DNA of 64,000 nt from Arcicella rosea (lineage in GTDB: Bacteria > Bacteroidota > Bacteroidia > Cytophagales > Spirosomataceae). The stretch spans positions 124,001 to 188,000 of the forward strand of contig NZ_JACHKT010000001.1 in the NCBI RefSeq assembly GCF_014204325.1, in the 5' to 3' direction. The notes under the pieces were generated by a model. The model searched no databases. It saw only the letters and a program-made list of their open reading frames with translations, and was not told the origin of the DNA. Both the position numbers and the translations under genes were made by a program. Within the stretch, counting starts at the first letter, position 1, and each line of letters begins with the position of its first letter. Of this stretch, positions 2,064 through 60,708 are shown in pieces.

Positions 2064-2907
2064 TTGGTTTGAATCTATTAATTTTAATTGGGGAAGCAAG
2101 ATAAATAACTTTATTTAGAACTTTAACAGATATTCTTCATAATGGCTTAGTTAAAACTGTATTTTCACTTACACTGGATGGAATGGGTCATTACAAAATT
2201 ATCTAACTGTAAAGCCATTACTTATTTAATTGCAGTTTATCATAAAATAATAAGCATTTCATCTACTTAAACTTTTATTATTTCTTTGTAGATAAACACA
2301 ACCATGAAAACAGCCAACAAAACCTCTTTTCAACCCTACAAAACCACCATAGCAATCTACAAGGCAATTTTGTAAGTTTACATAGCTATTTTGTTGACTT
2401 ACATAGGTTTTTTGTAAGCATACAAAACAATTTTGTTGACTTACAATGCTTCTCTGTAAGCTTACATAGACATTTTGTTGACTCAATATTTTTAATGTAA
2501 ACTTACAAAACTATTTTGCTGACTTACAAAATTTCTCTGCAACCTTACAAAATTATTTTGCAAGGTTACAGAAAAGCTTTGCAGACATTCAATGAACCAT
2601 TGTAATGTTACAATAAAGCATTGTAATACAACAAAATATATTTTAAGGCTTTATCTGTCAATGTGTTGACATTATCTAACTTGATGTAAACTTACATTGA
2701 CATTACTTTTGTTAACGATAAAAGAACTTAAGTTAATCCCAATTTTACCGTTTAATAAGTTTTCAAAAAAAATGCTTGCTTGTTTTTCTTTTTGAAATAC
2801 AAAATTAATTATCTTTAAATCAACAAGAGAAACTCAGCTTTTTTAGGTAGTTGTGTCTCTTGTTTTCCTATTGTTAAATAATGTTCCAACTATTAACTCC
2901 TACTACT
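2064..2907. other. Divergent intergenic region holding a 21-bp array
   Basis: About 840 bases between the start of the restriction gene (minus) and the FN3-like gene (plus). The middle is a degenerate 21-bp tandem array, annotated separately. The rest is AT-rich with no ORF that looks coding. The minus-strand frame through the array gives a 7-residue peptide repeat, which is a by-product of the 21-bp period. No clear -33/-7 promoter pair was found, although both flanking genes must start from here. Confidence 0.6.
2290..2630. repeat. Degenerate 21-bp tandem array (array 1)
   Basis: The trinucleotide TAC, within a (T)TACA core, recurs at 2337, 2358, 2379, 2400, 2421, 2442, 2463, then 2504, 2525, 2546, 2567 and 2609, that is at multiples of 21 bp apart from one 20-bp unit near 2484. 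Units alternate between a form ending TTTTGTT or TTTTGCT and a form ending TCTGTA or TTTGCA. Unit sequence has drifted but spacing has not. It is not a CRISPR array: there are no conserved repeats with unique spacers. The period equals that of the arrays at 30.4 and 59.0 kb. Confidence 0.85.
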
Positions 2908-3405
2908 ATGTCATTAGTAAAAGTAATTGTTAGTTTTTCACGGCTAAGAGATGATGACCTCGACACCAAAAGCCAAGTAATTATCAACAGCCTCACAGGG
3001 AATGCAGATTTCCCAAATCCTGTTCCAACGTTAGCGGAGATTGCAGCAAGCAGAGAAGCTTATGTAGATGCTTTAACGGCAAATGAAACAGGCGGTAAGC
3101 AGGAAACCCTCAGAAAAAACCTTGCTCGTAAAGACTTGGAAAAACAATTGGGTTTATTGGGTTTGTATGTTCAAGCCAATAGTAAGGAGAGTGAATTGAT
3201 TGCCTTGAGTTCTGGTTTTGACATTCAAAAAAACAGAGCACCGATTGGTATTTTGGCAAAGCCCAATAATTTTAAGGTTGAGAATGGCCCATTAGCAGGA
3301 AGCTTGCAGGCAAGTTTGGATAAAATAGATGGGGCGAAATCTTATCTTTTTGAGATTACAAAAACGCCAGTAACGGAGGATAGTATTTGGAAAACGGAGT
3401 TGTAA
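2908..3405 (+). CDS. Fibronectin type III-like small protein, truncated by in-frame stop
   Basis: Resembles a family of roughly 210-residue Bacteroidota proteins that start MSLVKV or MALVKV, have a helical N-terminal part (residues about 1-110 here) and end in a fibronectin type III-like domain. An in-frame ATG lies upstream at 2881, but the family start and the SLVKV sequence favour 2908. The TAA at 3403-3405 interrupts the FN3-like part after WKTEL; the same frame then stays open for 40 more codons that complete the domain (next entry). The product is therefore either a truncated protein or an inactive gene. Function is unknown; members of the family are often found in multicopy. It is transcribed away from the restriction gene and followed by a strong terminator. 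Confidence 0.7.
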   Translation: MSLVKVIVSFSRLRDDDLDTKSQVIINSLTGNADFPNPVPTLAEIAASREAYVDALTANETGGKQETLRKNLARKDLEKQLGLLGLYVQANSKESELIALSSGFDIQKNRAPIGILAKPNNFKVENGPLAGSLQASLDKIDGAKSYLFEITKTPVTEDSIWKTEL

Positions 3406-15269: not shown

Positions 15270-15638
15270 ATGGTACAGCAAGAATCAAGACTCGGCGTAG
15301 CAGATAACTCAGGAGCTAAAGAAGTTCTAGTTATCCGTGTGTTGGGCGGTACAGGAAAAAGATACGCTTCAATTGGTGATAAAATTGTAGTGACTGTTAA
15401 ATCAGCACTTTCATCATCAAGCATGAAGAAAGGTACGGTTTCTAAAGCCGTAGTAGTAAGAACTAAAAAAGAGATTCGTCGTAAAGACGGTTCATATATT
15501 CGTTTCGAGGATAACGCAGCCGTATTGTTGAATGCCAACGACGAGCCACGTGGTACTCGTATTTTCGGGCCAGTAGCACGTGAATTGCGTGATGCAGGTT
15601 TCATGAAAATCGTTTCATTAGCCCCAGAGGTGCTTTAA
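15270..15638 (+). CDS. rplN: 50S ribosomal protein L14
   Basis: 122 residues at the subunit interface (bridge B8). [19 protein letters not shown] and the C-terminal [20 protein letters not shown] are diagnostic. rplX follows after 14 bases. Confidence 0.97.
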
Positions 15639-15652
15639 TCATAATTCGTATC

Positions 15653-15985
15653 ATGGAAAGAAAGTTTAATAAGCAGCCAAAACTGCACATCAAATCTGGT
15701 GATACAGTTATCGTTATCGCTGGAAACTCAAAAGGTAAGACAGGCGTAATCAAAAGAGTATTGGTTGATAAGAACCGTGCAATTGTTGAGGGTGTGAATC
15801 TTCAAACAAAACACGTAAAACCAAATGCTAATACTCCGCAAGGTGGTATTGAGAAACGTGAAGGTTCTATTCACATTTCAAATTTGGCAATCGCTGAAAA
15901 TGGTAAGCCAGTTCGTACTGGTCGTAAATTGAACGAAGAAGGAAAGTTGCAAAGATTTTCGAAAGCAACAGGAAAATTCATTTAA
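15653..15985 (+). CDS. rplX: 50S ribosomal protein L24
   Basis: 110 residues, an assembly initiator with a KOW motif: IKSGDTVIVIAGNSKGKTG (about 13-31). GVNLQTKHVKPN and GGIEKREGSIHISN follow as in the family. Confidence 0.96.
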   Translation: MERKFNKQPKLHIKSGDTVIVIAGNSKGKTGVIKRVLVDKNRAIVEGVNLQTKHVKPNANTPQGGIEKREGSIHISNLAIAENGKPVRTGRKLNEEGKLQRFSKATGKFI

Positions 15986-29587: not shown

Positions 29588-30172
29588 TTACATCTTAATA
29601 CTGTTGATTAACTTACTGAAATTGCTCGGGTCAATGCCAATATAATTTGCTAAGTATTTATGCGGCACAATTTGTAAAATGTGTGGACTTCTTCGTAATA
29701 ATTGTTGAAACTTTTCTTCCGACGAAAAGCATTGTAGTTCTACCAATCTCTCTAATATACCCGAAAACACTCCCGTTAATCCTTTTCGTAATAAAACTTC
29801 TATTGCTGGTTTATTAATCAACAATTCCTCTATTTGAGCGTATGAAGCCCGCAAAAAAACTGATGGACTTAGCGTTTCATAATAATATCGGGAAGGTTTT
29901 TGATTCATCATTGAATCCAACACTCCACCGAAATTAGCTTGATAAGAGAATACCAACGTTGCTTCACGATGATGCTCATCCAAATAATACAATCTTTGTA
30001 AGCCCTCCAGTACGAAATACAAATACTTTTCCACACTCCCAGCTTGTGTTAATACTTCCTTTCTTTTTGCTGTATAAGGTTTAAACAAAGTATAAAAATC
30101 CTCAAAGTCTTCTTCTGATAGCGGATGAATATGATTGACTGTTTGTTGGAGTAAAAGCTTTTGATGATTCAT
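29588..30172 (-). CDS. Crp/Fnr family transcriptional regulator
   Basis: 194 residues: cyclic-nucleotide-binding-like domain (about 25-110, with VLTQAGSVEKYLYFVLEGLQRLYY in two strands split after EKYL) and a C-terminal helix-turn-helix HKYLANYIGIDPSNFSKLIN. Its gene points towards ftsL and interrupts the division cluster. Its own upstream region runs into the 30.4-kb tandem array. Paralogue of the regulator at 7.2 kb, with low identity apart from the HTH pattern. Ligand and targets unknown. Confidence 0.85.
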   Translation of the reverse strand: MNHQKLLLQQTVNHIHPLSEEDFEDFYTLFKPYTAKRKEVLTQAGSVEKYLYFVLEGLQRLYYLDEHHREATLVFSYQANFGGVLDSMMNQKPSRYYYETLSPSVFLRASYAQIEELLINKPAIEVLLRKGLTGVFSGILERLVELQCFSSEEKFQQLLRRSPHILQIVPHKYLANYIGIDPSNFSKLINSIKM

Positions 30173-30992
30173 TGTTTATCGTTTTGTGCATCAATCAAAT
30201 ATAAGGTAATTTGTAAATTGAACAGATTGACACTTTCATAGTACTAGCAATTTTCAAGAAATTAAATTTAATGATGTTGCATAAAGAGAAATTTTTGCTA
30301 ATACTTTAGGCTGTTGTTTAAGAAGATTGAGAAATCTATTTTTTAACAATGGTTGAATTTTTTAAAAGATGAAAATATGTATTTTTTCATTATGATGAAA
30401 TTTTTCCTATAAGCTGAGAGATTTTTCGTATGAGAAACAGAGCATCTCTTATACGAAAAATTATTTTTCCTATAGATGACAAAGCATTTCTTATAGACGA
30501 TAAAGTTTTTCTTGTAGGATATAAGCATTTCCTATAAGCGAAACTATTTTTCCTATAGATGATAGAGCATTTCTAGTTTACGGAGAATTTTTTCTTGTAG
30601 GAAATAGAGCATTTCTAGTTTACGGAGAATTGTTCCTTGTAGGAAATAGAGTATTTCTGGTTTACGAAAATATTTTTCTTGTAGGAAATAGAGCATTTCT
30701 GGTTTACGGAGATTTTTTTCTTGTAGGAAAAAGAGTATTTCTAGTTTACGGAGAAGTTTTTCTTGTAAGAAATAAAGCATTTCTAGTTTACAAAAAACTA
30801 TTGCTGACAAGAAAAATAGCTAAAAAAGGCGTTAAAAGACTGTGTTTGGGTTTGTTTATTTTCTAGCAATCGCTTTTAAACACCATAATTGCAGATGAAT
30901 AATTAACCAATCTAAGCGACAGAAAAGGCTTGAAATATTAAAGAACCTCGTTAAATTGAGGCAAATAATACTTTTAAACAATTTAATTTATC
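30173..30992. other. Divergent intergenic region with 42-bp tandem array
   Basis: 820 bases between a Crp/Fnr gene (minus) and the Kelch gene (plus). More than half is the array at 30380-30805. The flanks are AT-rich without a gene. Several ORFs that cross the array on both strands are products of its period and are not accepted as genes. Confidence 0.6.
30380..30805. repeat. 42-bp tandem array made of two 21-bp half units (array 2)
   Basis: ATTTC(T/C) occurs at 30486, 30527, 30569, 30611, 30653, 30695, 30737 and 30779: six consecutive steps of exactly 42 bp, preceded by one of 41; an ATCTC variant at 30444 extends it by 42. Each unit consists of a half like GCATTTCTAGTTTACGGAGA and a half like TTTTTTCTTGTAGGAAATAG, each 21 bp. 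The 3' half of the array is nearly uniform, the 5' half has drifted but kept phase. Not CRISPR: no unique spacers. Confidence 0.9.
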
Positions 30993-31973
30993 ATGAAAAT
31001 TTATCGACACATTTTAACGCTTTCTTTATTGTTTATTACTTTGATAAACAATTACTTACATGCACAAACTTGGGAAACTATTAGTCCTGAAAACAATTGT
31101 ACTAAGCGATTAGAAAATACACTCGCCGCTGTTGGGGATAAATTAGTTTTATTAGGTGGAAGAACCGTAAAATCAACAGAAGTTTATGACATTAAAACAA
31201 AAACATGGACAAAACTAGCCGATGCTCCTTTAGAAATTCATCATTTACAGGCTGTTACTTTTCAAAATGAAGTTTATGTAATGGGTGCTTTGACGGGACA
31301 ATATCCGCATGAAACGCCCATTCCTAATATTTACATTTTTAATCTTCAAAAGAATGAATGGCGAAAAGGTCCAGAAATTCCTAGCGATAGATTAAGAGGG
31401 TCTGCGGGTTGTGTGGTATATAAAAATAAAATTTACATGGTTTGTGGTATTCAAGATGGACATTGGGACGGTCATGTTGCATGGTTGGATGAATATGATC
31501 CACAGAAAAACACTTGGCGTAAGCTTGCCGACGCTCCGCATGTTCGTGACCACGTGAGTGTAGCCGTGATTAAAGATAAATTATACTTGGCAGGAGGAAG
31601 ACGTTCAACGGCAAAGATTAATCAAGTATTAAACTTAACAGAACCTGCTGTAGATGTTTATGATTTTAAACAAAATACTTGGGAAACATTGCCTGAAAAT
31701 TTAAACATTCCAACACAAAGAGCGGGATATTCAGCAGTAGCATTGGGGAATAAAGTGTTGATTATTGGGGGTGAAAGTCCTGCACAAGTTCCTGCCCATA
31801 GCGAAGTAGAAGCTTATGATGTTGATAAAAAAGCATGGTTAAAATATCCAAGTCTAAATCAAGGTCGTCATGGAACAGGAGCAGTTGTGGTAAAAGGAAA
31901 AGTATATACCATAGCAGGTTCAGGAAACAGAGGCGGTGGCCCAGAACTTGAAGCAATAGAAGTATTAAAATAA
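30993..31973 (+). CDS. Secreted Kelch-repeat beta-propeller protein
   Basis: 326 residues with a signal peptide (about 1-25, ending LHAQ). About six Kelch repeats follow, each with a DxxxxxW(E/R)KL-type strand: VYDIKTKTWTKLADAP, IFNLQKNEWRKGPEIP, EYDPQKNTWRKLADAP, VYDFKQNTWETLPE, AYDVDKKAWLKYPS, with GG pairs between (LLGGRTV, LAGGRRS, IIGGES). Such propellers bind proteins or sugars; some are galactose-oxidase-like, but no copper/tyrosine site is evident. It precedes an orphan LytS-type kinase with a hairpin between them. Confidence 0.9.
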   Translation: MKIYRHILTLSLLFITLINNYLHAQTWETISPENNCTKRLENTLAAVGDKLVLLGGRTVKSTEVYDIKTKTWTKLADAPLEIHHLQAVTFQNEVYVMGALTGQYPHETPIPNIYIFNLQKNEWRKGPEIPSDRLRGSAGCVVYKNKIYMVCGIQDGHWDGHVAWLDEYDPQKNTWRKLADAPHVRDHVSVAVIKDKLYLAGGRRSTAKINQVLNLTEPAVDVYDFKQNTWETLPENLNIPTQRAGYSAVALGNKVLIIGGESPAQVPAHSEVEAYDVDKKAWLKYPSLNQGRHGTGAVVVKGKVYTIAGSGNRGGGPELEAIEVLK

Positions 31974-58306: not shown

Positions 58307-58873
58307 ATGAAAAATTCAATAAACCTTCGTTTTGGTGTATTAGTTGCTATCATTTTGGTTGCTATTGCCTTTCGTTTTTTAGCGGTGATTGCACCAACAT
58401 TATCCAACTTTTCACCTGTAGGAACAATCGCATTGTTCGGAGGGGCTTATTTTGCAAAAAAGCAATGGGCTTTTATTATACCAATGGCTGCCTTGTGGTT
58501 ATCTAATTTGGTGTTAAACAATGTTTTTTATAAGCAGTGGTATCCTACTTTTTCATTTGGTTTTGATTTAGGCACTTTCTTTTGTTTTGCTTTGGTAGTA
58601 GCGATAGGCATCCTTACGCTAAAGAAAGTAACAGTTACAAGCTTACTTACCGCTAATTTATTAGGCACAGTTGTATTCTTTGTAGTGTCTAACTTTTTAG
58701 TTTGGACTGGTGGTAAAATGTATCCACAAACTTTTGAAGGTTTAATGTCATGTTATACAATGGCTTTACCTTTCTTGAAAAATACTTTGACGAGTAATTT
58801 AATTTTCTCAGCAATCATGTTTGGTGCTTTTGAATATGCAAAATCAACTTCTAAAGTTTTACAATTGCAATAA
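58307..58873 (+). CDS. DUF6580 family membrane protein
   Basis: 188 residues with about five transmembrane segments. NFSPVGTIALFGGAYFAKKQ near the N-terminus, WLSNLVLNNVFY, and a C-terminal TFEGLMSCYTMALPFLKNTL are characteristic of DUF6580, a putative small-molecule transporter family resembling ECF S-components. In some bacteria it is under cobalamin riboswitch control; no such element is seen here, only an ordinary promoter. Divergent from purK, followed by a terminator and the third repeat array. Confidence 0.8.
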   Translation: MKNSINLRFGVLVAIILVAIAFRFLAVIAPTLSNFSPVGTIALFGGAYFAKKQWAFIIPMAALWLSNLVLNNVFYKQWYPTFSFGFDLGTFFCFALVVAIGILTLKKVTVTSLLTANLLGTVVFFVVSNFLVWTGGKMYPQTFEGLMSCYTMALPFLKNTLTSNLIFSAIMFGAFEYAKSTSKVLQLQ

Positions 58874-59014: not shown

Positions 59015-59310
59015 TTTATGGTTAGAAATCCTATTTTTCACCCTTGAAAAATTATTTAATAAGGTAGAAACAAACATTTTCACCCCTGAAAAACTATTTT
59101 GTATGGTAGAAATAAATATTTTCACCCCTGAAAAACTATTTTGTATGGTAGAAATAAATATTTTCACCCCTGAAAAACTATTTTGTAGGATAGAAACAAA
59201 TATTTTCACCCTTGAAAAATTATTTAGTAGGGTAGAAACAAATATTTTCACCCTTGAAAAACTATTTTGTAAGGTAGAAAAAAACATTTTCACCCTTGAA
59301 AAACTTCTTC
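59015..59310. repeat. 42-bp tandem array made of two 21-bp half units (array 3)
   Basis: TTTCACCC starts at 59036, 59078, 59120, 59162, 59204, 59246 and 59288: six steps of exactly 42 bp. Half units are TTTCACCCCTGAAAAACTAT and TTTGTATGGTAGAAATAAAT (plus one base each). Units differ by only a few substitutions (CCCC/CCCT, GTATGG/GTAAGG/AGTAGG). No spacers, so not CRISPR. Confidence 0.92.
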
Positions 59311-59472: not shown

Positions 59473-60708
59473 TTATGCTTCAATATCAACAATCTTGGCA
59501 ATATGTTTCCAAAACGAAGGATATGATTTCACGACTACATCTGGTTCTTCAATCGTAATGTCTGAAACCAACGCTAAAGGAGCAAAAGCCATTGCCATTC
59601 TATGGTCATCGTAAGTATGAATAGCCGTATCTGCTTTAATGGCTTCTCCACTTGCCGTTAATAAGTATTTATGATTTTTTTCTATTTCTACTAAACTTCC
59701 GCCAATTTTGGCTAGTTCAGTTTGCAAAGCATAGATACGGTCGGTTTCTTTTACTTTTAAAGATTCCACGCCTGTTAATGTAAGTGGAATGTTTTTAGCC
59801 GCCGCCACAACACAAACTGTCTGAGCTAAGTCTGGACAATTGGTGAAATCCCAAGCCAAAGAAGCTTCCGCAGGAATTTTAGTCAATTTGAAGCCACGAC
59901 CAGTATATTCAGATTTCACGCCTAAATGACTCATGATGTCAGTAATCACAGAATCACCTTGTAATGAATTTTCTTTTAAGCCTAATAATTCTAATTCAGC
60001 ATCTTCAAATTCAGAAAGTGCAACCATCGAAAACCAATAGCTTGCTCCCGACCAATCTGATTCAATAGCATAAGGAATTACTTCATATTGTTGTGCAGGC
60101 ACGGTAATCGTCATGTTTTCCCAATCAGGAGTAACCGTAATACCGAAACTTTTCATTTGTTGAATCGTCATTTCGATATATGGCTTAGAGCCTAAATCAC
60201 CAGTAATGGTTAAAATTAGTCCTTCTGGCAATAAAGGGGCAATCATCAAGATGGCAGAAATGTATTGCGAAGAAACATCACCTCTAATGGATAAATTTTT
60301 ATTTCCAGAGAAATTAAAACCATTCAATTGCAGAGGCGGATAACCTTCTTTATTCAAATATTCAATATCAGCACCCAAAGAACGAAGTGCATCTACCAGA
60401 ATACCAATCGGACGCTCGCACATTCTTGGCGTACCCGTCATTGTTTTTTGTTGACCCGTTACCGAGAAAAAAGCAGTCAAGAAACGCATGGTAGTTCCAG
60501 CATCAATCACATCAGCGATGGCATCATCAGAAGCCAACAAACGCATCATCGTTTGAGTATCACGAGCTTCGGCAAGGTTCGATAAATTATCTTTTCCCTT
60601 TGCCAAGGCATTGATAATCAAAGCACGATTAGATTCTGATTTAGAAGAAGGTAATGGAATTTCCGTTTGGAAAGATTTTTGTACTTTGGGAAGGAATAGC
60701 TTTTTCAA
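59473..60708 (-). CDS. aroA: 3-phosphoshikimate 1-carboxyvinyltransferase (EPSP synthase)
   Basis: 411 residues; sixth step of the shikimate pathway. LPSSKSESNRALIINALAKG near the N-terminus (shikimate-3-phosphate site), DAGTTMRFLTAFFS (PEP/glyphosate site, with the N-DAGTAMRF-type motif), GDVSSQYISAILM and KVKETDRIYALQTEL towards the end. Slightly shorter than E. coli AroA (427), usual for Bacteroidota. Glyphosate-class assignment would need alignment. Stands alone. Confidence 0.95.
   Translation of the reverse strand: MKKLFLPKVQKSFQTEIPLPSSKSESNRALIINALAKGKDNLSNLAEARDTQTMMRLLASDDAIADVIDAGTTMRFLTAFFSVTGQQKTMTGTPRMCERPIGILVDALRSLGADIEYLNKEGYPPLQLNGFNFSGNKNLSIRGDVSSQYISAILMIAPLLPEGLILTITGDLGSKPYIEMTIQQMKSFGITVTPDWENMTITVPAQQYEVIPYAIESDWSGASYWFSMVALSEFEDAELELLGLKENSLQGDSVITDIMSHLGVKSEYTGRGFKLTKIPAEASLAWDFTNCPDLAQTVCVVAAAKNIPLTLTGVESLKVKETDRIYALQTELAKIGGSLVEIEKNHKYLLTASGEAIKADTAIHTYDDHRMAMAFAPLALVSDITIEEPDVVVKSYPSFWKHIAKIVDIEA

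Follow-up and report, generated by a model that had tools for sequence, protein, structure and literature searches.

The window, that is, the whole stretch of 64,000 nucleotides analysed here (G000:C1:124001-188000), comes from a genome of 5.31 Mb in 77 contigs and holds three tandem arrays in the gaps between genes. Array 1 is the 'home' array of a gene of a family termed F2 here, upstream of which it lies; array 2 occupies the divergent gap between a cNMP-binding-domain gene and a Kelch-repeat gene, and array 3 the convergent gap between a DUF6580 gene and aroA:

2337..2640, no strand: array 1, 21-bp period with palindrome-like CTTACAAAA..TTTTGTAAG units and one 41-bp step (from TACA steps and TRF)
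2881..3405, + strand: F2 gene, window copy (ORF of 174 aa; two paralogues elsewhere in this genome)
29588-30172, - strand: cNMP-binding-domain gene
30397..30820, no strand: array 2, diverged 21-bp units at the left and 42-bp units after them (left edge by eye)
30993-31973, + strand: Kelch-repeat gene
58307-58873, + strand: DUF6580 gene
59035..59305, no strand: array 3, 42-bp units (from TRF and word steps)
59473-60708, - strand: aroA

According to the original prediction, these arrays share a spacing of 21 bp or twice 21 bp. The shared period is real and better founded than had been claimed, with the correction that the elementary period is 21 bp and that two diverged halves alternate in the 42-bp units. 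In array 2, the word ATTTC is found at 30486, 30527, 30569, 30611, 30653, 30695, 30737 and 30779, so that the six steps of 42 bp are there as claimed, preceded by one step of 41 bp; according to TRF, 30562-30791 holds 5.5 copies of 42 bp. The six 42-bp steps announced for array 3 are likewise present, the word TTTTCACCC recurring from 59035 to 59287, and TRF counts 6.5 copies of 42 bp (59035-59305). For array 1, where TACA was thought to step by 21 bp, most steps between 2337 and 2627 are of this length (21 six times, then 41, 21, 21, 21, 42 and 18), the single steps of 41 and 42 bp and the last one of 18 bp being the exceptions; TRF returns a mixture of 21, 42 and 83 bp (2371-2570). The best cyclic identity between arrays 1 and 3 is 24/42, just over the 99% point of shuffles (23/42), and may be due to chance, because 24 is also seen between arrays of different genomes. 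Array 1 has a relative at C2:153087 and weaker ones on C32 and C12, and array 3 has relatives of 89-92% identity at C12:121608, C3:225325 and C10:133156. Neither array 2 nor array 3 has a neighbour of family F2 or of a second family, F1, and no home type can be clearly assigned to either (best 23 and 24 of 42). The aroA of the window is closest to Arcicella, Flectobacillus and related Spirosomataceae, with 78-84% identity in most of the best matches. In relatives (L027, L030, L031, L033-L036), aroA is followed, beyond a gap that contains no array, by a different small gene that looks PAS-like by eye.

Beyond the window, 77 stretches of 20 kb were chosen by place and three further 20-kb stretches for their relatives of array 3, i.e. 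not by place; together with the window they form a sample of 1.664 Mb (31% of the genome). In a scan of lags 10-130, counting as a region at least 70% identity across 126 bp, lag 42 was found in 20 regions, one heptamer microsatellite included, and lags 84 and 126, as multiples of 42, in 20 and 18. Lag 63 occurred in five regions, lags 105 and 123 in three each, and all remaining lags, multiples of 42 aside, in 0 to 2 each, which makes 42 bp by far the commonest tandem period of the sample. The autocorrelation across 31% of the genome thus bears out a dominance of 42 bp well beyond chance. Other arrays of this genome scatter in period and mostly comprise 2-3 copies; periods near 42 bp are rare (43 bp once, with 2.6 copies; 40 bp four times, with 1.9-2.7 copies). 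Only one array of many copies deviates from the common period by a single base; it lies at C7:57641-58034 (L152:17641-18034; 41 bp x 9.6 copies). A separate repeat (GTAGCACGGGTTTCCAACCCGT...; 61-62 bp, indels present) is also dispersed, with copies at L023:10323-10507 and 15606-15726.

With 84-bp windows, 22 lag-42 regions were obtained, of which C5:109618 and C5:156838 were removed as heptamer-type simple repeats, leaving 20 arrays; 14 arrays from stretches chosen by homology and five at F1 or F2 genes bring the total to 39, and 34 of these constitute the set measured for copy number and clustering. The 34 arrays hold 6.5 units on average (sd 1.3), with a peak at 6-7 and a single period-42 array of two copies, although array lengths may be limited by read length because the assembly is a draft in 77 contigs, which may cap or collapse arrays. 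Copy numbers below 2.5 are seen in 29/42 arrays of other periods (at least 20 bp). Within a 42-bp unit, the first and second 21 bp match at a mean of 11.05/21 positions, and the even harmonics are on average stronger than the odd. Units are homogenised inside each locus and different from locus to locus, and solo dispersed units are few in 1.66 Mb. Substitutions by far outnumber gap events in the 20 arrays of period 42 (383 versus 19), significantly more so than in 21 intergenic arrays of other periods (144 versus 27; Fisher p 3e-5), although in several arrays the number of gap events is even, so that they may cancel.

Clustering of the 34 arrays by cyclic identity yields 5, 8, 11 and 15 clusters at thresholds of 24, 25, 26 and 28 of 42. 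A motif common to all arrays seemed apparent as long as related arrays were included and was gone with one array per cluster; among the eight cluster representatives at threshold 25, no shared motif was found (p 0.65). Dyad symmetry is confined to some families, so that a universal palindrome was discarded, and a contiguous core with a variable linker was not borne out as a general rule. The notion that the period is kept and not the sequence is thus upheld by the dominance of lag 42, by the gap and substitution counts and by the cluster analysis.

The 20 sample arrays sit between ORFs, one of them overlapping an ORF call by 19 bp (ORFs formed by the arrays themselves were set aside in this count). 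Seven are in convergent, seven in tandem and five in divergent gaps, and the remaining one is at the edge of a segment; for comparison, 172/1194 gaps in the whole sample are convergent. Neighbouring 3' ends are within 170 bp of the array in 18/21 cases, and 5' ends are at least 131 bp away in 16/18. Genes resembling Y1/IS200-type transposases adjoin two arrays (L229:11294-11743, by Pfam; L243:16679-17227, by eye only), a possible clue to array dispersal.

Neutral minisatellites, that is, slippage products that inherited one period from an ancestral array, would be in keeping with the clear relatedness of some arrays and with their location in gaps, closer to 3' than to 5' gene ends. The peak of copy number at 6-7, the rarity or shortness of arrays with near periods (40, 41 and 43 bp) and the low number of indels relative to other arrays all argue against this explanation, as does the linkage to F1 genes in other families of the order despite unlike array sequences (see below); we consider it improbable.

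A different kind of regularity becomes visible when each 21-mer of an array is treated as a row and the entropy of the columns is converted into a spectrum. With 21 representatives picked by hand, two of them from other genomes and all pairs at 24/42 identity or below, the column entropy has a 10.5-bp power of 1.84 (null 1.00, sd 0.21; p 0.0002; n=21), and taken over all harmonics the 10.5-bp power has p 0.0016 (n=21 representatives). Control arrays of other periods have a value of 1.15 at 10.5 bp (se 0.15; n=14). Under the strictest clustering, in which arrays linked at 24/42 are merged into 15 clusters, the 10.5-bp power is 1.53 (p 0.02). This rhythm is also present in the agreement between the two halves of the units (p 0.01; n=14 representatives) and, less strongly, in the substitutions within arrays (p 0.04). 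The rhythm is not uniform: 10.5 bp is the strongest harmonic in 7/21 representatives, and its signal is strong in about half of them and weak in the others. Read plainly, such constraint would correspond to two contact patches per unit, located on the same DNA face at a distance of one turn; in palindromic families, a hairpin per 21-bp unit could mimic two conserved patches. The rhythm of constrained columns is consistent with the protein-binding platforms that the original prediction envisaged.

Since 21 and 42 are divisible by three, the arrays might be coding DNA for protein repeats of 7 or 14 residues, heptad-like in character. Open frames are somewhat in excess, with 17/20 arrays containing one (13.8 expected, sd 1.9) and 29 such frames in total (22 expected; p 0.045). 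A codon-phase bias is nevertheless absent in 20/20 arrays (smallest p 0.09), and in the same entropy spectrum of 21 representatives the 3-bp power is not raised (0.67, p 0.96). Moreover, the array of period 41 maintains 9.6 copies, and no ORF of at least 70 aa overlaps the array in L268, one of the loci from other families described below, all of which makes a coding function hardly credible. Heptad-like peptides discerned by eye in arrays 1 and 3 (LQNxFAx) were dismissed on the same absence of codon-phase bias.

Transcribed arrays of RNA hairpins, serving for example as RNA-protein scaffolds or sponges, have some backing in family P, in which the hairpin stem exhibits 29 G-U, 5 A-C and 14 other non-pairs in 36 units, counts that are not independent events, and in which the best z per array ranges from -4.7 to -8.7; array 3 and its relatives fold too. 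The preference of G-U over A-C could mean that this family is transcribed in one direction. For 33 arrays (array 1, with fewer than four units, was left out of the 34), folding yields z < -2 on a strand in 14, mostly of families P and S, and 19 are without such a signal, so that RNA structure as a general property is not supported. Base-exact spacing is unexpected for RNA, and Rfam has 0 matches in the window at the gathering score. The chance that RNA hairpins explain the arrays is small. Family P arrays (L229, L230, L235, L140; C22, C45, C5) have much of their first unit in common, and also a leader with TTTGGTTT..AAACCAAA.

Intrinsic curvature of the DNA, requiring no sequence-specific protein, was the other function suggested at the outset, on the grounds that T-runs and A-runs fall on alternate half turns. 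A period of 21 bp does equal two helical turns, and the AA/TT power at 10.5 bp is above that of simple shuffles, 0/300 of which reach it. This alternation does not appear to be general, however: against a matched null of two related intergenic 21-mers, with one array per family, the AA/TT power is nothing special (p 0.11; 14 representatives). The predicted wedge curvature of the arrays is 0.88 (sd 0.38), similar to the 0.77 (sd 0.25) of 222 stretches of other intergenic DNA; arrays of shuffled units have 0.72 (sd 0.34). GC-rich arrays such as C7:38963 (48% GC) still hold the period. Curvature by itself is a very improbable explanation.

What makes the finding interesting is the linkage of arrays to two gene families, which had escaped the original prediction and lies outside its coordinates. 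Comparison of 66 array-neighbour proteins among themselves, of which the Pfam scan covered 30, revealed the families F1 and F2 in addition to a distant pair of M20 peptidases. According to protein searches of the whole genome, F1 (~240 aa) has eight genes and F2 (~206 aa) three. The window copy of F2 ends early compared with its paralogue; the region of homology extends to ~3522 and contains a single in-frame stop. Each F2 paralogue has an array about 200-250 bp upstream. Searches of Pfam, NCBIfam and PHROG at E<=0.001 found nothing for either family, and no solved structure matches F1 better than E 0.05; one longer F2 paralogue has a weak fn3 match (E 0.0045). No recognised DNA-binding domain was found in F1 or F2, the nearest being a sub-threshold Rok winged-helix match of one F1 protein (E 0.018). 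A homology between F1 and F2, which seemed likely by eye, was not supported by hhalign profile comparison.

An array is close by in 8/8 F1 and 3/3 F2 genes, always within about 250 bp; for F1, the distances from the end of the match to the TRF edge are 7, 109, 152, 131, 90, 180, 97 and 23 bp. As a background, 44/1305 sample ORFs (3.4%) are within 300 bp of an array. Four F1 genes and two F2 genes were first met as array neighbours, so the independent test of linkage comprises the four F1 genes and the one F2 gene that were found by protein search alone, and here the score is 5/5. The home array is upstream of the gene in 8/14 loci and downstream in six, so that it has no fixed promoter position. 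Arrays related to several home types lie in other parts of the genome: the C4:10535 type at six further loci, the C54 type on C20, C12 and C9, the C49 type on C40, the C11 types on C28, C55 and C18, the C9 type on C34, C10 and C18, and the F2 type of C8 on C33. The majority of arrays have no F1 or F2 neighbour. Co-divergence of gene and array is weak, and the evidence for it is mixed: the arrays of the closest F1 pair, C4:10535 and C4:43342 (proteins 69% identical), agree at 24/42 and those of the F2 pair C1/C26 at 25/42, and the closest F2 pair, C8/C1 (70% identical), has arrays with 18/42.

Outside this genome, F1 was found neither in any of the seven congeners (7/7; completeness 84-99%) nor in the 17 other family members searched. 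Among 38 relatives, it is present in G032, G028 and G025 and as a fragment in G026, and across the class its distribution is patchy, with 38/395 genomes including this one. Three F1 loci from other families, which were chosen for F1 alone, each have an array of 21-bp period upstream (3/3; about 160-320 bp), and the three are unlike one another by eye; linkage outside this genome refers to these three loci:

L266, upstream of F1: TTGGGCGCAATGCCTTAAGTT x 9.6
L267, upstream of F1: diverged 21/63-bp array
L268, upstream of F1: diverged 21-bp array

By comparison, 1.55 Mb of other relatives contain five lag-21/42/63 loci at equal threshold, mostly based on shorter units. In 400 kb of two congeners, no lag-42 array was detected except two built from shorter units. 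A mixture of 13 array types had no match in six of the seven congeners and one 29-bp match in the remaining one, G003, and array P had a single match in the congeners, of 38 bp and again in G003. The idea that orthologous gaps might contain arrays of equal period was not confirmed, neither at three loci compared across the genus nor in the 400 kb of two congeners; at these three loci, only one flanking gene is at its place in the congeners, and clean empty sites were not seen. An array of 21-bp period on a Roseivirga MAG contig (L087:9726-9895) has no F1 or F2 relative in the 10 kb covered. In Flectobacillus longus, a heptamer array (L034:11162-11285) consists of CCCTAAA x 17.7; CCCTAAA is the plant telomere repeat word. 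Searches of viral_contigs with F1 (profile A1), with one F2 protein and with two array patterns retrieved no relatives; those of plasmids retrieved none of one F1 and one F2 protein, and those of phages none of one F1 protein. Literature searches limited to open-licence PMC papers found no description of these arrays.

This distribution bears on a further possibility, a selfish or mobile module in which satellite-like arrays spread with F1 and F2 as copying or maintenance factors, and in which period and size originate from the copying machinery and not from a function in the cell. That the arrays were found here and not among the congeners searched would fit such a module, as would their homogenisation within and difference between loci, the scarcity of single dispersed units, the patchiness of F1 (38/395 genomes) together with its not being found in congeners, and the resemblance of two array neighbours to Y1/IS200-type transposases (one by Pfam, one by eye). 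Common ends or target duplications, in contrast, were not seen by eye in the flanks, except for the leader common to family P, and the 10.5-bp rhythm of constraint points to sites that are read. We regard a selfish origin as unlikely, though with an appreciable chance of being correct.

The interpretation that we favour, with slightly less than an even chance of being right, is that the arrays do not code for protein but string together protein-binding sites in phase with the helix, F1 and F2 being the likely partners. It is built on the period, the lack of a codon signal, the size of the arrays, the low number of indels, the 10.5-bp rhythm and the F1/F2 linkage, all of which are observed; from these we infer protein binding, the identity of the binders and the effect of binding. 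The co-occurrence of genes and arrays also speaks for it, since neither F1 in the seven congeners nor 42-bp arrays of this type in 400 kb of two of them were found, and so do the dispersed relatives of several home types. Against it stand the lack of a recognised DNA-binding domain in F1 and F2, the variable position of the home arrays, the many arrays that have no F1 or F2 neighbour, the weak co-divergence of gene and array, and the fall of the rhythm under the strictest clustering. The idea of a protein platform is newly supported by the helical rhythm and by a linked gene family that keeps the period, though not the sequence, in other families of the order. The arrays could function in the following manner: Each 21-bp unit would expose, on a single face of the DNA, two patches for contact that are separated by one helical turn. 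Units would recur every two turns, the period becoming 42 bp where two unit variants alternate, and about 13 sites could thus be aligned over roughly 275 bp. The sequence of the sites may vary between loci because every array type has a reader protein of its own, and the spacing may be kept because it sets the face of the DNA. The most likely readers are the F1 and F2 proteins, whose own genes each have a home array beside them, and the further copies of several array types would be distant sites dispersed in the chromosome. Binding may give rise to partition- or domain-like nucleoprotein complexes, or it may define a regulon.

A more far-reaching proposal, possible but doubtful at present, is that the arrays and their genes represent a new class of bacterial DNA-protein system. 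F1 and F2 paralogues, each with an array type defined by helical spacing and not by sequence, would have multiplied into orthogonal protein-array pairs in one chromosome, would have been moved between bacteria by horizontal transfer and would act as chromosome anchors or addressing sites. Should F1 and F2 indeed read the arrays, a single strain would provide 11 naturally diverged protein-array pairs of one geometry, a natural test of how protein and site change together in sequence under fixed spacing, and possibly a new layer of chromosome organisation in Bacteroidota. Even without this reading by F1 and F2, a non-coding element defined by its spacing would escape sequence-based searches.

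Several known systems resemble the arrays in part. Minisatellite or VNTR typing loci, of which Burkholderia pseudomallei offers an example (PMC1853098), are similarly tandem arrays detected by TRF. The 42-bp arrays are set apart by their constancy, whereas other arrays of this genome vary in period and mostly have 2-3 copies. REP/BIME elements are palindromic units of one sequence that also occur as solo copies. They share with the arrays the intergenic location closer to 3' ends, the palindromes of some families and, in the case of two arrays, the vicinity of Y1-type genes; they differ from the fixed 21/42-bp period, the about 13 sub-units, the small number of solo units and the unlike sequences in one genome that are seen here.

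Two further parallels are systems in which a protein gene is located beside its own sites. Iterons of plasmid origins are tandem sites about two helical turns apart, located beside the cognate Rep gene and differing between systems. The direct repeats of 21/42 bp, present in several copies beside a candidate partner gene, are alike in this respect. Dozens of longer arrays in one genome are unlike iterons, as is the lack of a Rep family match of F1 and F2 at E<=0.001 (one F1 protein is RepD-like at E 0.076, below the cut-off). In ParB-parS, Noc and ParR-parC, a protein gene has a home site as well as dispersed sites, and the site has one conserved sequence. No ParB domain was found in the F1 and F2 proteins scanned. 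The arrangement of a gene with a home site and dispersed sites is the same, but in the arrays described here it is the spacing that is kept, and the sequence varies between array types.
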